Of a stretch of DNA of 64,000 nucleotides, positions 133 to 9,896 are shown in pieces (the stretch's first letter is position 1; every line of letters starts with the position of its first letter). Made by a program: the position numbers and the translations under genes. This stretch comes from Armatimonadota bacterium. Its GTDB lineage: Bacteria > Armatimonadota > Fimbriimonadia > Fimbriimonadales > GBS-DC. Location of the stretch: the NCBI GenBank assembly GCA_013359125.1, contig JABWCR010000005.1:1-64000 (forward strand). Direction: 5' to 3'. The notes below the pieces were generated by a model, which made no database searches, was not told where the DNA came from, and saw only the letters and a program-made list of their open reading frames with translations.

Positions 133-1321
133 AGCCAGTCCCCAAATGCATGGGGCAAACTAATTCGCAATTCTTAATTCGTAATTGATTTAACGGTTCA
201 TCCCCACATGCGTGGGGCGTAGTAGTCGCCCGCCCGCTTGGGCGAATCGTCCGACGGTTCATCCCCACATGCGTGGGGCGTAGCCGTAAGCTACCACGGT
301 CGCGCAGTCACCTATCGGTTCATCCCCACATGCGTGGGGCGTAGGGCCTCTAACCACCCCAGATCATCGTATGACTCGGTTCATCCCCACATGCGTGGGG
401 CGTAGCTTGACGGCCTGATCGAAGGCCTGATCGACGGCGGTTCATCCCCACATGCGTGGGGCGTAGCGAAACCACCGGCGGCCGTACAGTCGCCGGACCG
501 GTTCATCCCCACATGCGTGGGGCGTAGGCAGACGAAGAGTTTGAGCGCAGATTGTCGGCCGGTTCATCCCCACATGCGTGGGGCAGGCGCCGCCGCCCAT
601 TCTTTCCATAGAAGCGGGCGAGGTTCATCCCCACGTGTGTGGGGCAGGCGCGAACCCGGAACTTAGAGGGTTTGACGCCAGGGGTTCATCCCCACGTGTG
701 TGGGGCAGGCTAGCGGCGGCCGCCCTGGGAAACGTTCGTCCAGGGTTCATCCCCACGTGTGTGGGGCAGGCGCAGTATACGCGCGTCAATGTCCAGAAGA
801 GGAAGGTTCATCCCCACGTGTGTGGGGCAGGCTCGAGCCCCGCCCGCATCGGCTTCATCCCGCGGGGTTCATCCCCACGTGTGTGGGGCAGGCGTAGTCT
901 ATATGGGCGACGATGGCGCATGGTGTGGTTCATCCCCACGTGTGTGGGGCAGGCGCGGGCTGGTGGCAGGAGACCCTTTGCGGGATCGGTTCATCCCCAC
1001 GTGTGTGGGGCAGGCGCCCTTCCCAATTCCCACGCCTTGCAATTCTTAGGTTCATCCCCACGTGTGTGGGGCAGGCTTCGTTTCAAGAGCCATCTATCCA
1101 TCTTTGCCCGGTTCATCCCCACGTGTGTGGGGCAGGCTGAGGCATATGCCGACAAGATGAACACGATACAGGTTCATCCCCACGTGTGTGGGGCAGGCTA
1201 CGGCTGGGGGTTAGGCGGCCGCCGGACTGGGGGTTCATCCCCACGTGTGTGGGGCAGGCTAAATACGACGGGCGTTTAGCCTGTTGGGTTCTGGGTTCAT
1301 CCCCACGTGTGTGGGGCAGGC
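133..1321 (-). CRISPR. CRISPR array, type I-E-like repeats in two versions with a chimeric junction repeat
   Basis: There are 19 clear 28-bp repeats, starting at 195, 256, 317, 378, 439, 500, 561, 622, 683, 744, 805, 866, 927, 988, 1049, 1110, 1171, 1232 and 1294, at 61-bp period (last interval 62). A degenerate terminal repeat lies at 133-160, where 16 of 18 core bases match. Every repeat has the same 6-bp stem (CCCCAC/GTGGGG on the plus strand) and begins GGTTCAT. Repeats 1-6 have loop ATGC and end CGTAG (version A). Repeats 8-19 have loop GTGT and end CAGGC (version B). Repeat 7 (561-588) has the A loop and the B end. Spacers are 33 nt between 28-bp repeats. Transcription is on the minus strand: cas genes and leader lie on the right, and the degenerate repeat is leader-distal on the left. 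crRNAs would carry an AUGAACC-type 5' handle. Confidence 0.97.
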
Positions 1322-1400
1322 TCTAAAAGTTACCAGGTTGCTACGCATTTTACCAGGTTTTTCATCCGTTTGTCAAGGAGCTTTGTGCAATCCGCCAGAC
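1322..1400 (-). promoter_or_regulatory. CRISPR leader with promoter for the array
   Basis: Read on the minus strand, TTGACA (1371-1376) and TAAAAT (1347-1352) are separated by 18 nt. This is a good sigma70-type promoter placed to start a transcript about 10-20 nt before the first repeat (ends 1321). The decamer TTACCAGGTT occurs twice, at 1330-1339 and 1350-1359, exactly 20 bp apart, next to the insertion end of the array. A duplicated leader motif could be an anchor for Cas1-Cas2 integration or a host-factor site; that role is inference. No conserved protein is encoded here. Confidence 0.75.
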
Positions 1401-1487
1401 GCTCTGTCGGCGTCTCGGTCTCGAACCCCGCAGTCTTTACAGCGTCCGAGGCGTCCATTATACCCCGTTGTCAAGCCCCGAGCCGAT

Positions 1488-1713
1488 GTGCTCAAAATTG
1501 TGCTACAAATTCGAAAAATCCCGTTGGCGCATGGCGTAGAAAGCCTCCACACCCGCCGTTTGGTGCGGAGGGATCCAAGGGGCGGAAAGGGGGCGTTCCG
1601 AGGGGCGGAAAGGGGCCAGGCGGAAGCCTGGCGTTCCAAGGGGGCGTTCCGAGGGGCTTTGCCAGGCGGAAGCCTGGCGTTCCAAGGGGGCGTTCCGAGG
1701 GGGGCGTTCCACG
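1488..1713. repeat. Element fragment and REP-like hairpins between leader and cas2
   Basis: Bases 1491-1507 (CTCAAAATTGTGCTACA) match one terminal inverted repeat of the element at 55551-55817, but no second end follows, so this is a truncated copy. It is followed by two copies of an 18-nt perfect hairpin (stem GCCAGGC/GCCTGGC, loop GGAA) at 1615-1632 and 1661-1678. Each is followed by GTTCCAAGG, with further GGGCGTTCCGAGG units around them. The block runs right up to the cas2 stop codon and separates the cas genes from their leader. No gene is seen. Confidence 0.7.
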
Positions 1714-2886: not shown

Positions 2887-3528
2887 TTAAGGGATTGGGG
2901 CGAGGCTGAGGAGGCCGAACCCGTAGGACTTTTGGGGCCCGACGCCGTTGGCGACGGCTTGGAGGAGGGCTTCTTTGTCGGTTACGGTCAGGATGCCGTC
3001 GAATTGGACGGCGTGGAGTTCCTTTGGGCTGCCGTCGGATTTATACTCCTTGACCTTGGTGTCGAACCAGACGCGGTCGGTGAGGCTGACTTGTTCGATT
3101 TTGAATCCGTGCTGGTCGCCTTTGCGGTTTAGCCAGTCTCGCTGTTCGGGTTCTTCGGATAGGGCGAAGCGGCGGTTTTTGTGTTGGGGGTGCTTTCTGG
3201 GCGTTTTCCAGGAGGGTTTGGCCAGGAGTCGGAAGCGGAGCTTGTCGCCGGGGTTGCAGGGGGGGAGCTGCAGGGGTACGGGGCCGGAGACTTTGACGAA
3301 GGGGGGTAGTTTGGACCAGTCGGGCGGGGTTTTGGACTGGACGCAGATGTAGCCATGGTCGCCGTCGATGTCGAAGCGATAGAGGACTCGGGCTTTGGTG
3401 GCGGTTTGTTTGTCGGGGAAGCCTTTGTAGACGAGTTTGTGGAGCTCGTAGAAGTTTTGCCATCCGTCGGCGGCGATTTCGGTCGTGATGGGCGCGCTGA
3501 TGGCTGTGATGTAGAGTTCTTGGTTCAT
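2887..3528 (-). CDS. cas6e: Cas6e-type crRNA endoribonuclease
   Basis: A 214-residue protein that would cut the hairpin repeat transcript to give crRNAs with an 8-nt handle. The N-terminal LHKLVYKGFPD segment (with H30 as likely catalytic histidine), RVLYRFDID, and the C-terminal glycine-rich GVGPQKSYGFGLLSLAP loop are hallmarks of Cas6e/CasE/Cse3 of type I-E, not of the Cas6 usually found with csm genes. The ATG at 3528 was chosen because the family starts with a short beta strand (ELYITAI) at once; a longer frame upstream overlaps csm6. The start lies two bases after the csm6-like stop. The repeats in the adjacent array have the stable stem that Cas6e needs. Confidence 0.9.
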   Translation of the reverse strand: MNQELYITAISAPITTEIAADGWQNFYELHKLVYKGFPDKQTATKARVLYRFDIDGDHGYICVQSKTPPDWSKLPPFVKVSGPVPLQLPPCNPGDKLRFRLLAKPSWKTPRKHPQHKNRRFALSEEPEQRDWLNRKGDQHGFKIEQVSLTDRVWFDTKVKEYKSDGSPKELHAVQFDGILTVTDKEALLQAVANGVGPQKSYGFGLLSLAPIP

Positions 3529-3530
3529 GT

Positions 3531-4781
3531 TTAGGTCCAGAGTTTGGGGAGGTTGGGGACGCGGAAGTCGGGCAGGCTCGCGTCCAGAGTTCGAAGACGC
3601 TGTTCGATGGAGGCGACAAACCGCTCGACTTTGTCTTTCTTTGCGGGAGTCCAACCATGCGCCAATATCGAGAGGTTGCGGATTTGGAGGTAGTCGTCGA
3701 AGAGGAAGCGATTGCCGTCGAAGAAGGATTGGGCTTCGGGCATTCCAAGGGCTTTAGATAGACAGAAGGCGTCGGACAGCCCCAGTTTTGAGGGCCTTGA
3801 GCCTTCTGCCGATTTAGCCAGGGCGAGGAAATTGTTTACGGCGTCCTGTGGGATTTTGCTCCAATCTATCGCGGAGGGCTTGAGGTTTCGCAGGGAGAGG
3901 AGCCATTCGCCGATGGCTTCGAGCGCGCGGTAGGCGCGGGCTCCGGCGTCGTCGTATCGGCCTGCTTTGAGCTTGCGGCGGGCGTTTTGGAGCAGGTCGG
4001 CCACGGCGCAGAGACTGGGTTTTTCGTCTTGGCTGACGCGGCGTATCTGTGCCGATAGCGTTGTCATTTCGTCGCACCATTGCGCGAGGCTTTGGTTTCG
4101 GACTTCTTGAGCGACGAGTTTGATTTCGGCCGCGGCGTCCTGTAACTTTGTCGCCGGTCTGTCGTTGTCGTAGTGGTCGAAGCGGTCCCAATCGCTTAGA
4201 CTGCTGCTGACCCCGACCAGCGATCGGTAGAGGCGGTAGGGCGCAGAATGAGAGGGGGCGATTTGAGCGAAGGCGCCGGCGGCGCCCTCGAAGTCGCTTC
4301 GGTTGAACAGTTCGACCGCGGCATCGCAGGCGATCATTCCGAGGGAATCGTCGGCGCTGCCTAATTGAACGAGTCGTTCCTCACCCGGAACGGGTTTGCC
4401 TTCCTTAAAATCCACATCTACGTAGAGCAGCACGGCTTCGGTGCGACCGGCGAAGAGGGTGATTCCGGCGCTCATCCATTTTCGGCCTGCGGTGGGGTTG
4501 ATGGCGATGCGTCCTTGGTCGCCGATCTGTTCTCGAAGCCAGACATAGGCTTCATGCGCTTTGGCCACGAAGTCGTTGAGTTTGGTCGGGTCGTCTTCGA
4601 CCTGTCTGACGTCGTATTGCGACGGTTTGAGGCCGGTTTCTTGGACGATCTCGTCGATTTTGGGCCGCGATCCGCTGGTGCACAGGAATGCGACGCGCTC
4701 TGGCTGGAGTTGTTTGATGGAGTAGATCTCCGATCCGACGCTCATTCCTACTGAAAGCAAAAGTCCGTCAACTTTGTCCAT
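3531..4781 (-). CDS. CARF-HEPN ribonuclease, Csm6-like (TIGR02710-type)
   Basis: A 416-residue protein. The N-terminal half looks like a CARF sensor for cyclic oligoadenylate: LLLSVGMSVGSE near residues 7-18, VAFLCTSGSR near 30-40, and NPTAGRKWMSAG further on. The C-terminal half ends in a HEPN motif, R368-N-L-S-I-L-A-H375 (RX6H), the catalytic pair of this RNase fold. Such proteins are activated by the cOA that Cas10 makes and then cut RNA nonspecifically. The gene takes the place in the operon where csm5 is expected. Its start overlaps csm4 by 14 nt, which implies coupled translation. It resembles the TIGR02710 group more than classical Csm6. Confidence 0.85.
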   Translation of the reverse strand: MDKVDGLLLSVGMSVGSEIYSIKQLQPERVAFLCTSGSRPKIDEIVQETGLKPSQYDVRQVEDDPTKLNDFVAKAHEAYVWLREQIGDQGRIAINPTAGRKWMSAGITLFAGRTEAVLLYVDVDFKEGKPVPGEERLVQLGSADDSLGMIACDAAVELFNRSDFEGAAGAFAQIAPSHSAPYRLYRSLVGVSSSLSDWDRFDHYDNDRPATKLQDAAAEIKLVAQEVRNQSLAQWCDEMTTLSAQIRRVSQDEKPSLCAVADLLQNARRKLKAGRYDDAGARAYRALEAIGEWLLSLRNLKPSAIDWSKIPQDAVNNFLALAKSAEGSRPSKLGLSDAFCLSKALGMPEAQSFFDGNRFLFDDYLQIRNLSILAHGWTPAKKDKVERFVASIEQRLRTLDASLPDFRVPNLPKLWT

Positions 4782-5646
4782 CGCTGACCTCGGACATCAT
4801 AAGCGGCCACGTTGGGGCCAGGCCGTAGTGAACGTATTTTGAATTCGAGTCGGTGTCTGGCTTGCGCAGTTCCCCGACGCTCGCCCGATCATGGCCAAGT
4901 GGAAAACTGGAACCCGTCGCCAGCATGGGGGCGAAGGCGAGCTGGCCTTGGTTGCCCAAGGCGGGGTTGTCGCGTCTTCTTATAGGCACGCCGGTCCATC
5001 GCCAATAGCCGTCGGCGGGCAGGTCGTCGGTTGGGTGGATGTGGCCCAGGGCGGCGACGCAGTGGCCGGCGTCGGGCCGGTCCAAAGGGTAGATGCCGTT
5101 GAGGTCGATGGCGCCGTAGCCGTAGCTGAGGCCGTAGCCCCAGCCTTCGAAGCAGAGGTAGTTGACGAGGGAGCGGAAGTCGTCTTCGCTCAGGTCGTCG
5201 GAGAGCATGGCGACGATGAGGATGCCGTCTTTCGGATGCCAGCCTTTTTCGGTGCGGAGGGCGGCCTCGCCGACTGTGCCGGTCTCTCGGCCGATCATGA
5301 CGTGGGTTCGGTTGAGCTCGGGCACTTCTTCTTCCTTTACATCGGGCCAAGCGCCGTTCTTACAGAGTTCGAGCCAGGCGGCCCACGGCAGGGTTTTGGG
5401 CTTCTTGCCCTTATGGGGCAGTTCGGCCTGGTAGAGCGCGGGCACGGGCACGGCCTCCTTGGGGAATCCGTCGCTGACGACGAGAGGCGGGCGGTTCTCT
5501 TCGTAGGCTTGCAACCACTTTTCGATCGTCCAGCCTTTGGCGGCGCCGTTGGCAACGCCCCAGGTTAACCGTCCCCAGAGCGTGGCGTTGCGCCATGGGG
5601 TGAGATAGGGCGATGCGCAGATCAGATCGACCTGAACGCAACGCAT
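4768..5646 (-). CDS. csm4: Csm4, Cas5-family RAMP subunit of a type III-A complex
   Basis: A 292-residue RAMP protein that caps the 5' handle end of the crRNA next to Cas10 in the Csm complex. Visible features are the N-terminal TPWRNATLWGRLTWGVA segment (equivalent to the DTLFGAL stretch of the family), VVSDGFPKEAVPVP (the conserved S-D/A-FP), and a glycine-rich GWGYGLSYGYGAID loop. Start and stop are unambiguous: csm3 ends TAA directly before this ATG. Csm4 and Csm5 are both RAMPs, but the SDGFP-type motif and position after csm3 favour Csm4. No second RAMP of Csm5 type follows. Confidence 0.85.
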   Translation of the reverse strand: MRCVQVDLICASPYLTPWRNATLWGRLTWGVANGAAKGWTIEKWLQAYEENRPPLVVSDGFPKEAVPVPALYQAELPHKGKKPKTLPWAAWLELCKNGAWPDVKEEEVPELNRTHVMIGRETGTVGEAALRTEKGWHPKDGILIVAMLSDDLSEDDFRSLVNYLCFEGWGYGLSYGYGAIDLNGIYPLDRPDAGHCVAALGHIHPTDDLPADGYWRWTGVPIRRRDNPALGNQGQLAFAPMLATGSSFPLGHDRASVGELRKPDTDSNSKYVHYGLAPTWPLMMSEVSDGQS

Positions 5647-6330
5647 TTAGGCGGTGGCTCCCAGTTTGGCGCTTTTTTCGCTCCATGTCAGGCCTTCGAA
5701 CTTGACCTGGCCGTAGCCTCGGGTTACGGAGCCGCCCATGCCTTCGCTTTCGAGCAGGCTGAGAGCGTGCAAGAGCGCTTGCTTCATATGCCCTTCGTTG
5801 TCGCCTTCCAGCACGCGGACGGTAACTTGGAAGTTGAGCTTGGCTCCTGCGGGGATGCGGTCCATGCTTCGGGGGCCGGCCTGGCCGACCTTGCCCGTGC
5901 TGCGATCCATGGTGACCTCGGCTTTGACCTCGCTGTAGAAGATGCCCTCGCTCATGAGCGGTTTTAGGCTCTCAAGGCTTTCTGGAAGCATCGTGCAATC
6001 CCTAAAGATCAATCGCGAAGGCTCTTGGGCGTCCTGTGCGCGGCCGCAGCCAAAAAGCCAGCAAACGGCGCAGTTGTTGCATCCGCACGGACCGGTCGTC
6101 GCTCGCGGCTCGGTGAAGTTGCCAACTTGGAAGTTGCTGACTTCGAGCAAGCTGCGGAGTTTGCCTTTGAGGGACGAGCCGGGCACGTAAGGCTGGCGAG
6201 TTACAGGATGTCTGACGATGGGGTTGTCGAGGCCGCCTATCTCGAGGCTGGCGCCTCCGGCCCCGATTCTCAAGCCAGACAGCACGACCATCGTGCCGGT
6301 CAGTTCCATGTGTTTGACGAGCGCTTTCAT
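5647..6330 (-). CDS. csm3: Csm3, Cas7-family backbone and target-RNA nuclease
   Basis: A 227-residue protein, multiple copies of which form the crRNA-binding filament of the Csm complex and cut target RNA at 6-nt intervals. The family's catalytic aspartate is present as D35 in EIGGLDNPIVRHP. Also visible are PYVPGSSLKGKLRSLLE, a CGCNNCAVCWLFG cysteine cluster (zinc site), and the C-terminal GSVTRGYGQVKF glycine-rich loop. A perfect AAGGAGGT lies 9 nt before the ATG. It is expected to be catalytically competent. Confidence 0.95.
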   Translation of the reverse strand: MKALVKHMELTGTMVVLSGLRIGAGGASLEIGGLDNPIVRHPVTRQPYVPGSSLKGKLRSLLEVSNFQVGNFTEPRATTGPCGCNNCAVCWLFGCGRAQDAQEPSRLIFRDCTMLPESLESLKPLMSEGIFYSEVKAEVTMDRSTGKVGQAGPRSMDRIPAGAKLNFQVTVRVLEGDNEGHMKQALLHALSLLESEGMGGSVTRGYGQVKFEGLTWSEKSAKLGATA

Positions 6331-6336
6331 TGTTCG

Positions 6337-6774
6337 CTACCTCCTTAAGTAAGCCATGACGCTTTGGAACAGTTGGTAAAAGCCTTCAAAGTTCTTGTCG
6401 TCTTTCAACACCGCCTCGCAGTGGGGATGAATGAAGCGTTTGGCCTCGTCCCACGTTCGGTCTCTCCCCGCTTGATATTGTGCAAATCGATGCAAGGAGC
6501 CAATGCCGGACGACAGAACCGCCTGCCGATCTTCGCCCATCTTGATCCTGAAGTTCATGGATGAAACCAGATCGAACGCGCGGCGCATATTGGTGCGGCT
6601 GACGCGAATGTTGTCGGCAATTTCCTTTGGCCACTTGACGAAGACGTCTTTTCTGAGATTGCCTTTCTCGTCAAAGTAGTCTGTCATGGCCTGGTAATTG
6701 ACGGCGCTTTGCGGCTGTTGGCCGCCTTGGTGGGGCGGGCGACCGCCTCGGTCGTCTCTGCGTTGTTGGTTCAT
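6337..6774 (-). CDS. csm2: Csm2, small subunit of the type III-A complex
   Basis: A 145-residue protein that lines the crRNA-target groove of the Csm complex. After a Q/R/G-rich disordered start (MNQQRRDDRGGRPPHQGG), the helical core is typical of Csm2: VSRTNMRRAFDLV, then a long basic helix, and FEGFYQLFQSVMAYLRR at the end. The ATG at 6774 overlaps the cas10 TGA in ATGA and has AGGAGG 5 nt upstream, so a longer upstream frame is rejected. Confidence 0.88.
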   Translation of the reverse strand: MNQQRRDDRGGRPPHQGGQQPQSAVNYQAMTDYFDEKGNLRKDVFVKWPKEIADNIRVSRTNMRRAFDLVSSMNFRIKMGEDRQAVLSSGIGSLHRFAQYQAGRDRTWDEAKRFIHPHCEAVLKDDKNFEGFYQLFQSVMAYLRR

Positions 6775-8213
6775 GGTTCCTCCTGTCGCGTCTTGGTGTT
6801 CCAGCCCGCCAGCGTGCCGACCAGCGAAGCGATGGGCCAATCGGTTTCCTCATTAGAGAGCGATTCGAAGAAATCCTGCAACGGCTTGGGCCATTGGCTC
6901 GTTTTCCACTCGTTGCGCCGCGAGCGCAAGTAGGCAAACTGGGGGATGGAGTGGTATCGCATATTCTTAAAGGGCTCTGGCGCGCCGGGCAGGAAGGGCT
7001 CGCCCAAGTGTCTTAGGAGCTGGAGCGCGCCGCGGTTGATCGATTTCTCAGCGATGGCATGCACCAAGGCATCGGTCAGTTCGGTGGCTTTGTGGAACTG
7101 GGGCCAGGGGTGCAGGCTGCCGGCAATGGATATCCGATTACGCTCTTCTTTGGCGATGTCTAACTGAACGTCGGCGCTCTCGACCGCCTTGAGGATGGGA
7201 TAGTTGCGGCTATAGAAGCTGACGCCGGCCGATACGGTTCCTAAGCCAAGGGCTGCGAACTCGCGCTGGATCTGCCCTGCCGCGCGCAGAACGCCCCAAA
7301 AATGGCCGGTCAGCACCAAATCGTCTCCGCCGGAGTAGACCAGGTAGAGGCGGGGGTATTCCTTTTCCAGCATCTCCGGCACTCGCTGGCAGAAGAAGCC
7401 GGTTAGTTGTCGGCTGGTTTCTTCGTACTGCTGCTCGCCCTTGTCGAGGGCGTCCTTCATCCTATTGCCGATGCCGTCGCCGTCCAGTTTGAGCAATGCG
7501 AGGTAGGGCGCCCCTTGGCCCTCTTCGGCCAGTTTGAACAGTTCGGATACGGAATCGTCTCGGTCGAGCGGGGCGTAGAGCGGCAGACCCAAGTTGACCC
7601 TGCCGTTGGCTTTGCCGGTCAGGCCGATGTCGGGGTCGTGCTCTGTCGGCTGGATGCGCCAGGGGCCGACCTCCCAGCCGTATTGCCCTGTTTTGAAGCC
7701 CACGATTCTGGGCGGTCTTGGCAGCCTGCCGCCTTGTTCGCTTTCGAAGGCTGCTCTATCGTCTTGCGACTGTTTGGTGATTGGCTGAATGCCGACGGAG
7801 CCGAACCAATGGCCGCCGTTATCGCGCCCGGATCGCCACTTGGCGGCGTTCAGCGCTTTTAGAAGCTCTTGGAGGCTCGATCCGTCCGGAAGGCTTGCCC
7901 AGTGGAGGCCGAGCGCGCCGGAGGAGTTTTTGACGAGCCAATCGTAGAGTTCGGGCAAGTCGCGCTGTAGATTCTCGATTGCGTCCGCACTGGCCTCGGC
8001 CAACAGTTTACCGCCGCCCAGGTAGATCTCTCGCGCATTTGGGTCGGCCTCTTTGAGCTTGAGGAACGCGACCGCGGGCAACAGGCTGAGCAATGTGGAT
8101 CGGTATCGCAACCGCTTGGCGGCGTTTTCTTGGGTAAAGCGGCGGTCGGCCACATCTTGCGAAACGTCGAAGACGTAGCTTTGCAGGCCGGATAGCGCGA
8201 GTCCAAACTTCAT
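6771..8213 (-). CDS. cas10: Cas10/Csm1 without HD domain, cyclic oligoadenylate synthase
   Basis: Large subunit of the Csm complex, 480 residues against about 750-850 in most Csm1. It starts straight in the first palm domain (LALSGLQSYVFDV, then YLGGGKLLAE near 64-74). The second palm has LKLDGDGIGN at 241-250 and the intact GGDD at 295-298, needed to make cOA from ATP. The N-terminal HD nuclease domain is absent, and I see no cysteine-pair zinc finger between the palms. ssDNA cutting by Cas10 is therefore not expected; signalling to the CARF-HEPN protein should be the main output. It is the first gene of the cas operon; the next gene overlaps its stop. Confidence 0.93.
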   Translation of the reverse strand: MKFGLALSGLQSYVFDVSQDVADRRFTQENAAKRLRYRSTLLSLLPAVAFLKLKEADPNAREIYLGGGKLLAEASADAIENLQRDLPELYDWLVKNSSGALGLHWASLPDGSSLQELLKALNAAKWRSGRDNGGHWFGSVGIQPITKQSQDDRAAFESEQGGRLPRPPRIVGFKTGQYGWEVGPWRIQPTEHDPDIGLTGKANGRVNLGLPLYAPLDRDDSVSELFKLAEEGQGAPYLALLKLDGDGIGNRMKDALDKGEQQYEETSRQLTGFFCQRVPEMLEKEYPRLYLVYSGGDDLVLTGHFWGVLRAAGQIQREFAALGLGTVSAGVSFYSRNYPILKAVESADVQLDIAKEERNRISIAGSLHPWPQFHKATELTDALVHAIAEKSINRGALQLLRHLGEPFLPGAPEPFKNMRYHSIPQFAYLRSRRNEWKTSQWPKPLQDFFESLSNEETDWPIASLVGTLAGWNTKTRQEEP

Positions 8214-9259: not shown

Positions 9260-9613
9260 TCACCCCATTGATCGCGCGTTCGGGTCAAGAATGGCTTCGA
9301 GCTGTCTGAACAACCGGGGAAGATGGTTGACCACTACGTCCCATACGATATCATCATCGATGCCAAAGTAGTGGCGCACAACTTTGTCGCGGATTCCGGC
9401 TGCCTGCCGCCATGGAACCGCTAGGTGCAACTGACGGAACGCGGCAGGAACTCCCTTAGCGGCTTCGCCAATCACAGTTAGACAGCGAACGATGGCGTCG
9501 AAGGTTTTGGTATCTGCCGCTATGTCCTCCTTCGTCATCCCGTTTGCATACGCAATGGCGCGCCGACACGCCTCGGACATTTCTTCAATGTAGAGCAGAG
9601 GATCGCGCAACAC
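9260..9613 (-). CDS. hepT: HepT-like HEPN toxin (DUF86) with altered motif
   Basis: A 117-residue all-alpha HEPN RNase toxin. The family motif RX4HXY normally reads like RDKVVHHYFG. Here it is R75-D-K-V-V-R80-H81-Y82-F-G, so the usual catalytic histidine is an arginine, while a histidine remains one place later and the target tyrosine is kept. It may be attenuated, or use the shifted histidine (RX5H still fits the broader HEPN pattern). It overlaps the partner gene mntA by 29 nt, as is normal for these pairs. Confidence 0.85.
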   Translation of the reverse strand: MLRDPLLYIEEMSEACRRAIAYANGMTKEDIAADTKTFDAIVRCLTVIGEAAKGVPAAFRQLHLAVPWRQAAGIRDKVVRHYFGIDDDIVWDVVVNHLPRLFRQLEAILDPNARSMG

Positions 9614-9896
9614 GGATTGAATGCTCGTCTATGGTGCGGAGGAGGCGCGGTCGCAAGCCCTTTCGAGTTACAAGATCAACCCTAACGCCCAGCAGGCTCT
9701 CCAGGCGATCGTGAAGTCCAAACAATCGATCGAACGCGGCTGTGCCTTCAAATTCAACGACAACATCTACATCGTTCTCGGGCGTCCAGTCGGCGGTCGT
9801 AACCGACCCAAAGAGCGCCATAGACTTGACTCCATAGTCACTTGCCAGTTCCTTTGCCACGTTGGCCAGAGTTGTTACAATGTCCTCTCGCTTCAT
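9585..9896 (-). CDS. mntA: MntA-like minimal nucleotidyltransferase antitoxin
   Basis: A 103-residue protein with the nucleotidyltransferase signature GS-X10-DxD (LFGSVTTADWTPENDVDVVVEF) and a later VDLVTRKGL strand carrying the third acidic residue. Enzymes of this family AMPylate the tyrosine of the HepT motif and so neutralise the toxin. It precedes hepT in the same transcript with overlapping frames. It lies close to the CRISPR-Cas operon, consistent with a small defence cluster. Confidence 0.88.
   Translation of the reverse strand: MKREDIVTTLANVAKELASDYGVKSMALFGSVTTADWTPENDVDVVVEFEGTAAFDRLFGLHDRLESLLGVRVDLVTRKGLRPRLLRTIDEHSIRVARSSALH

Follow-up and report, generated by a model that had tools for sequence, protein, structure and literature searches.

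The CRISPR array and its two repeat versions

The stretch of DNA analysed in this study (the window) comprises the first 64,000 nucleotides of contig JABWCR010000005.1 of an Armatimonadota bacterium (GCA_013359125.1). It contains an array of clustered regularly interspaced short palindromic repeats (CRISPR), which was found to possess regular direct repeats, unique spacers, a leader and adjoining cas genes. The region 195–1321 contained six repeats of a version A, followed by one chimeric repeat (561–588) and twelve repeats of a version B. An earlier note on this DNA had described this layout, and it was confirmed by a check of the sequence. The A repeats start at positions 195, 256, 317, 378, 439, and 500 of the plus strand and have the sequence GGTTCATCCCCAC-ATGC-GTGGGG-CGTAG. 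The repeats of 622–1321 have the sequence GGTTCATCCCCAC-GTGT-GTGGGG-CAGGC, and the chimera reads GGTTCATCCCCAC-ATGC-GTGGGG-CAGGC. The CRISPR RNA (crRNA) sense corresponds to the minus strand, where version A is CTACG-CCCCAC-GCAT-GTGGGGATGAACC, version B is GCCTG-CCCCAC-ACAC-GTGGGGATGAACC and the chimera is GCCTG-CCCCAC-GCAT-GTGGGGATGAACC, thus combining the B end with the A loop. The two versions differ by 4 bases in the end and 2 bases in the loop, and the 7 bases GCCCCAC between the end and the loop are shared. Every copy within a block was identical, so chance is of no concern for the division into A and B. The six identical copies of A also rule out the drift of terminal repeats as the origin of this version.

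The leader region (1322–1713, minus strand) lies between the array and cas2, and degenerate repeats were found at the opposite end. This arrangement places the growth of the array at the right and makes version B the younger one, as had been proposed. The A repeats with their spacers (195–527) therefore form the older, leader-distal tract and the B repeats with their spacers (622–1321) the younger, leader-proximal tract, both on the minus strand. The chimera (repeat 7 of the earlier count) is the 13th repeat from the leader on that strand. A probable degenerate terminal repeat (GTTTGCCCCATGCATTTGGGGACTGGCT) was present at 133–160 of the minus strand, in register and with an A-like loop. It matched version A at 18 of 28 positions; the next best site nearby had 15 mismatches against 10 here. 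With this repeat, the array consists of 20 units. The last spacer or trailer occupies 161–194 (minus strand). All 12 spacers of the B tract (622–1321) end in A or C in the crRNA sense, a post hoc observation which did not recur in the second array of the genome or in the relative G054. Interspersed repeats (GCCAGGCGGAAGCCTGGCGTTCC, GGGAGGGGAACGAA) were found near the arrays and contig ends, at 1564–1702 of the window and at L021 6870–7900.

The one other array of the genome, on contig C43, contained the B loop and the B end throughout. The comparison of leaders suggested in the earlier note was carried out, and homology was found between the C43 leader and the array-near part of the window leader. 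The trailers were homologous as well, and in C43 the trailer directly followed a B-type repeat. In the last repeat of C43, ATGAACC was replaced by ATGAGCC. Spacers 9 and 10 of C43 (L021 5676–5820) were identical, which represents a tandem duplication of one unit. The earlier note had also suggested looking for a second version-A array in this genome and for pure A or pure B arrays in related genomes. The former was sought and not found, and a genome-wide search allowing 3 mismatches recovered no further A repeat. As for the latter, none was recovered from 290 other genomes of the phylum, in which neither A nor B repeats were found (single copies in G146 and G204 were not read out). The exact B repeat had no match in viral contigs.

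The first spacer base along the array

In type I-E systems, the base following the 28-base repeat (base 29) is derived from the protospacer adjacent motif (PAM) (PMC10011333; PMC8482600). In our study, base 29 in the crRNA sense was invariably G on the A side, at the six A repeats and at the chimera alike (C on the plus strand at positions 194, 255, 316, 377, 438, 499, and 560; feature on the minus strand). At the twelve B repeats it was C five times, T four times, G twice, and A once. A G after every repeat was thus present on the A side (7/7) and not on the B side (2/12), and the G of the A side is a putative trace of a PAM. An unsupervised changepoint analysis of base 29, in which the repeats were not used, identified the chimera as the precise point of change (permutation p 0.0025). 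The Fisher test also separated A from B, with 0.0007 for the comparison within the array and 0.006 when every distinct B spacer in the genome served as the reference.

In the type I-E-like arrays of the relatives, base 29 was G in 378 of 387 repeats. Most of the genomes with these arrays hold Cas7e; G119, in which no match was found, is an exception. A base other than G was rarely present inside otherwise uniform arrays, and these exceptions indicate that base 29 is not copied with the repeat. In G054, which contains csm genes and no Cas7e, base 29 was C in 38, T in 14, A in 12, and G in 8 cases and was therefore not selected for G. Base 29 of the spacers of this genome (L129) thus shows a depletion of G (8/72) and an excess of C (38/72), which indicates a biased choice and not a random one. 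In G158, which contains the csm core, all 14 repeats were followed by G and cas1 was found to be deleted; its spacers may predate the loss of cas1 or may have come in trans. The 14 of 14 in G158 rule out the proposition that a type III effector always means a free base 29.

The cas genes and the features of Cas1e

The cas genes lie on the minus strand and, going away from the array, are cas2e (1714–2001), cas1e (2003–2857), cas6e (2887–3534), a CARF-HEPN gene (3531–4781; TIGR02710, Csx1/Csm6-like), csm4 (4768–5646), csm3 (5647–6330), csm2 (6337–6840, start uncertain), and cas10/csm1 (6771–8213). The presence of Cas10/Csm1, Csm2, Csm3, and Csm4 in one operon identifies a type III-A effector. 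Cas1e, Cas2e, Cas6e, and the repeat are of type I-E. Cas7e was not found in the genome, which implies the lack of Cascade. Between csm4 and cas6e only the CARF-HEPN gene was present; a separate match to Csm5 was not obtained, only a weak match of the Csm4 type. Cas10 (480 aa) contained the palm domain and the GGDD motif, and no match to the HD nuclease family was found. The HD domain is common, though not universal, in the Cas10 of type III-A systems.

A close csm3 (69–74% identity) was found in two other genomes of the phylum, G054 and G158. The Cas6e of these two and of the window genome formed one clade with full support; the Cas1 of the window genome and that of G054 were not sisters in the tree. 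The simplest reading is that the effector and Cas6e moved together and the adaptation genes were swapped separately. In G054, a CARF-RelE gene (L129 13052–14218; PADLOC CARF7--CARF_RelE, 1e-86) occupies the place where the CARF-HEPN gene would be. In G158, a frame of 75 residues (L125 4529–4756) resembles Cas1 at its start (MPADFHLVSKFRD) and Cas2 at its end (FWEKVEREAG...), and it is apparently the scar of an in-frame deletion that took away the bulk of cas1 along with the beginning of cas2. A pair consisting of a HepT-like RNase and a nucleotidyltransferase, of the HEPN-MNT toxin-antitoxin type, was present near the CRISPR locus at 9260–9896 of the window.

Cas1e of the window genome is 284 aa long, its gene stops one base ahead of the start of cas2, and it is devoid of the C-terminal tail. 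The other Cas1e compared in the phylum were 30–50 residues longer, and most of them contained a DPAxP-like motif; in the Cas1 of G054 the C-terminal stretch was shortened and altered. At the position of E. coli K211 the window genome contained N, G054 contained Q, and the rest of the phylum compared contained K. In E. coli, K211, Q287, and I291 of Cas1 contact the complement of the PAM (PMC6395717), and the tail of Cas1 protects the PAM end (PMC10011333).

We compared residue 211 (E. coli numbering) with base 29 for the Cas1e of L052–L103 and L114–L129, at all loci with readable arrays. K211 was accompanied by G in 351 of 360 cases and G211 by G in 59 of 59, whereas S211 was accompanied by C or T in 717 of 733. 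The H211 loci mostly contained C or T, with one mixed locus. The groups of residue 211 represent few clades, so the link to base 29 is a correlation. On this comparative footing, the resident N211 Cas1 is unlikely to have made the tract that contains only G.

Origin of the chimeric repeat

The earlier note had left open whether the chimera arose by a crossover or by a two-step change of the leader-proximal repeat; it had overlooked the shift of base 29, the hybrid type III-A/I-E setting and the altered Cas1, and its interpretation is supported in part. We consider that the chimera is the scar of a single recombination between an A repeat and a B repeat, which fused an older PAM-selected tract with a younger PAM-relaxed tract, and we give this reading a probability of about 60%. 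The crossover would have taken place within GCCCCAC, and either the middle of one array would have been deleted or two arrays would have been joined by exchange. The A spacers would have been chosen by a PAM-reading Cas1e of the K211 type, leaving G as base 29. The B spacers would have been chosen with a relaxed PAM, as would be anticipated for the resident Cas1e, devoid of K211 and of the PAM-sensing tail and serving the type III-A effector, so that the changes in Cas1 would be the cause of the shift. A type III-A effector does not need a PAM.

The observations show one chimeric repeat, one side of it from each parent, with the parental tracts on the matching sides. One recombination in GCCCCAC would switch the end, the loop and base 29 together and leave no intermediates. 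Two points favour the crossover over the stepwise change: the shift of base 29 coincides with the chimera, and jumps of 4 and 2 bases lacking intermediates are hard to obtain stepwise. The duplication in C43 indicates that repeat-mediated rearrangement happens in this genome. This duplication, together with the trailer placed directly after a B-type repeat as if an A part had been removed, fits a deletion. In the relative G162 (L122), three AACCG repeats were found inside an AAGAG array; this block looks foreign, and exchange thus seems to occur in this group too. The view of two acquisition regimes is supported by the prevalence of G in the type I-E-like arrays of the relatives, by the unselected base 29 of G054, by N211 and the missing tail of the resident Cas1, and by the correlation of residue 211 with base 29.

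Several results weigh against the proposed recombination of two acquisition regimes. The sample of base 29 is small, with 7 bases on the A side and 21 distinct bases on the B side. No parental A array and no repeats intermediate between A and B were found in the genome. The protospacer searches yielded nothing for five spacer cores in viral contigs, and for the whole array in phages and plasmids only repeat-like matches and one marginal mycobacteriophage match of 31 bases (E 0.1); since protospacers were not found, PAM reading, with G as its trace, is what we infer here. Tail-less Cas1e with G211 elsewhere still yield G, which also rules out that the loss of the tail alone frees base 29. In the C43 array, whose repeats are of version B, base 29 was G for 5 of 9 distinct spacers, which rules out a strict tie between this version and bases other than G. 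As no more than a hint, C43 points to a change of the repeat that preceded the loss of PAM reading, a stage which the joint in the window would have removed. The relative G139 (L116) contained a graded series of AATCG, AAATG, AACTG, and AACCG within one array, in which the loop also changed in the direction of the old end and base 29 was G throughout.

The C43 count and the small numbers also speak for the reading that the junction is real and the shift of base 29 is due to chance, or that G belongs to repeat A as a templated 29th base, with no change in the choice of PAM. We regard it as somewhat unlikely. The statistical values (0.0007 to 0.006) stand against it, the rare non-G bases inside the uniform arrays of the relatives are at odds with copying of base 29 with the repeat, and the resident Cas1 is devoid of the PAM-contact features.

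A two-step change is less probable still. The end of the leader-proximal repeat would have changed, one spacer would have been added, the loop would then have changed, and later copying would have given the B tract without recombination. The order A, chimera, B is the trace expected of such copying, and the series in G139 is an example of graded change. However, 4 bases and then 2 bases would have to change simultaneously with only one acquisition between them, and the shift of base 29 at the chimera would be a coincidence. An assembly error joining two arrays at a short repeat is highly improbable: the genome consists of 47 contigs, the array lies near a contig end and the second array shares the B repeat, but the spacing is exactly 61 bases, the chimera is unique and has unique spacers on both sides, and no other contig contains A repeats.

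A further proposal, which we put forward as tentative though quite possible, is that one array records the loss of PAM reading by its own integrase. The older spacers with G would be PAM-selected and the younger ones PAM-relaxed, the I-E-like adaptation genes now serving only type III-A with a Cas1e devoid of K211 and the tail; a separate, similar loss would have taken place in G054 (Q211, eroded tail).

Rearrangement of CRISPR arrays by recombination between repeats or by replication slippage is known (review PMC8047081). The present case resembles the systems reviewed there in its variant terminal repeats, its stable old end, and the duplication and loss of units through repeats. In those systems the repeats are mostly identical and the joints invisible, whereas here the two repeat versions narrow the joint down to 7 bases and a second marker shifts along with it. 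A previous study reported that a PAM is rare (8%) in type III systems that possess cas1-cas2 of their own and usual (95%) in those without, and that the final base of some type I-E repeats derives from the PAM (PMC8482600). That study contrasted repeat clusters from different genomes; in the window the contrast seemingly lies inside one array. It is also known that type III systems which possess their own cas1-cas2 may contain PAM-free spacers (PMC8482600; PMC7515739) and that mutation of Cas1 can lower its PAM specificity (PMC10415146). The locus resembles E. coli type I-E adaptation in Cas1e, Cas2e, Cas6e, the 28/29-base hairpin repeat, the 32/33-base spacers, the 61-base period, and the G as base 29 of the A tract; it differs in the lack of Cascade, in the Cas1 devoid of K211 and the tail, and in the base 29 of the B tract, which is not selected for G. 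It resembles type III-A (Csm) systems in Cas10/Csm1, Csm2, Csm3, Csm4, and the CARF-HEPN RNase, and differs in that no csm5 was seen, Cas10 had no HD match, and crRNA processing and adaptation genes are of type I-E. A search of open-licence papers recovered no report of a repeat version and a PAM-derived base switching together in one array, which is weak evidence of novelty, and nothing on point for chimeric or mixed-repeat arrays.

Over the compared loci a simple rule emerges, in which residue 211 of Cas1e tracks the PAM-derived base: K and G are accompanied by G, whereas S, and for the most part H, are accompanied by C or T. This rule can be tested by single substitutions in laboratory E. 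coli. If the proposed history is true, the two parts of the array would document, in dated order, how the specificity of the acquisition enzyme changed. It would then become testable whether the service of a PAM-free effector leads adaptation genes to lose PAM reading.
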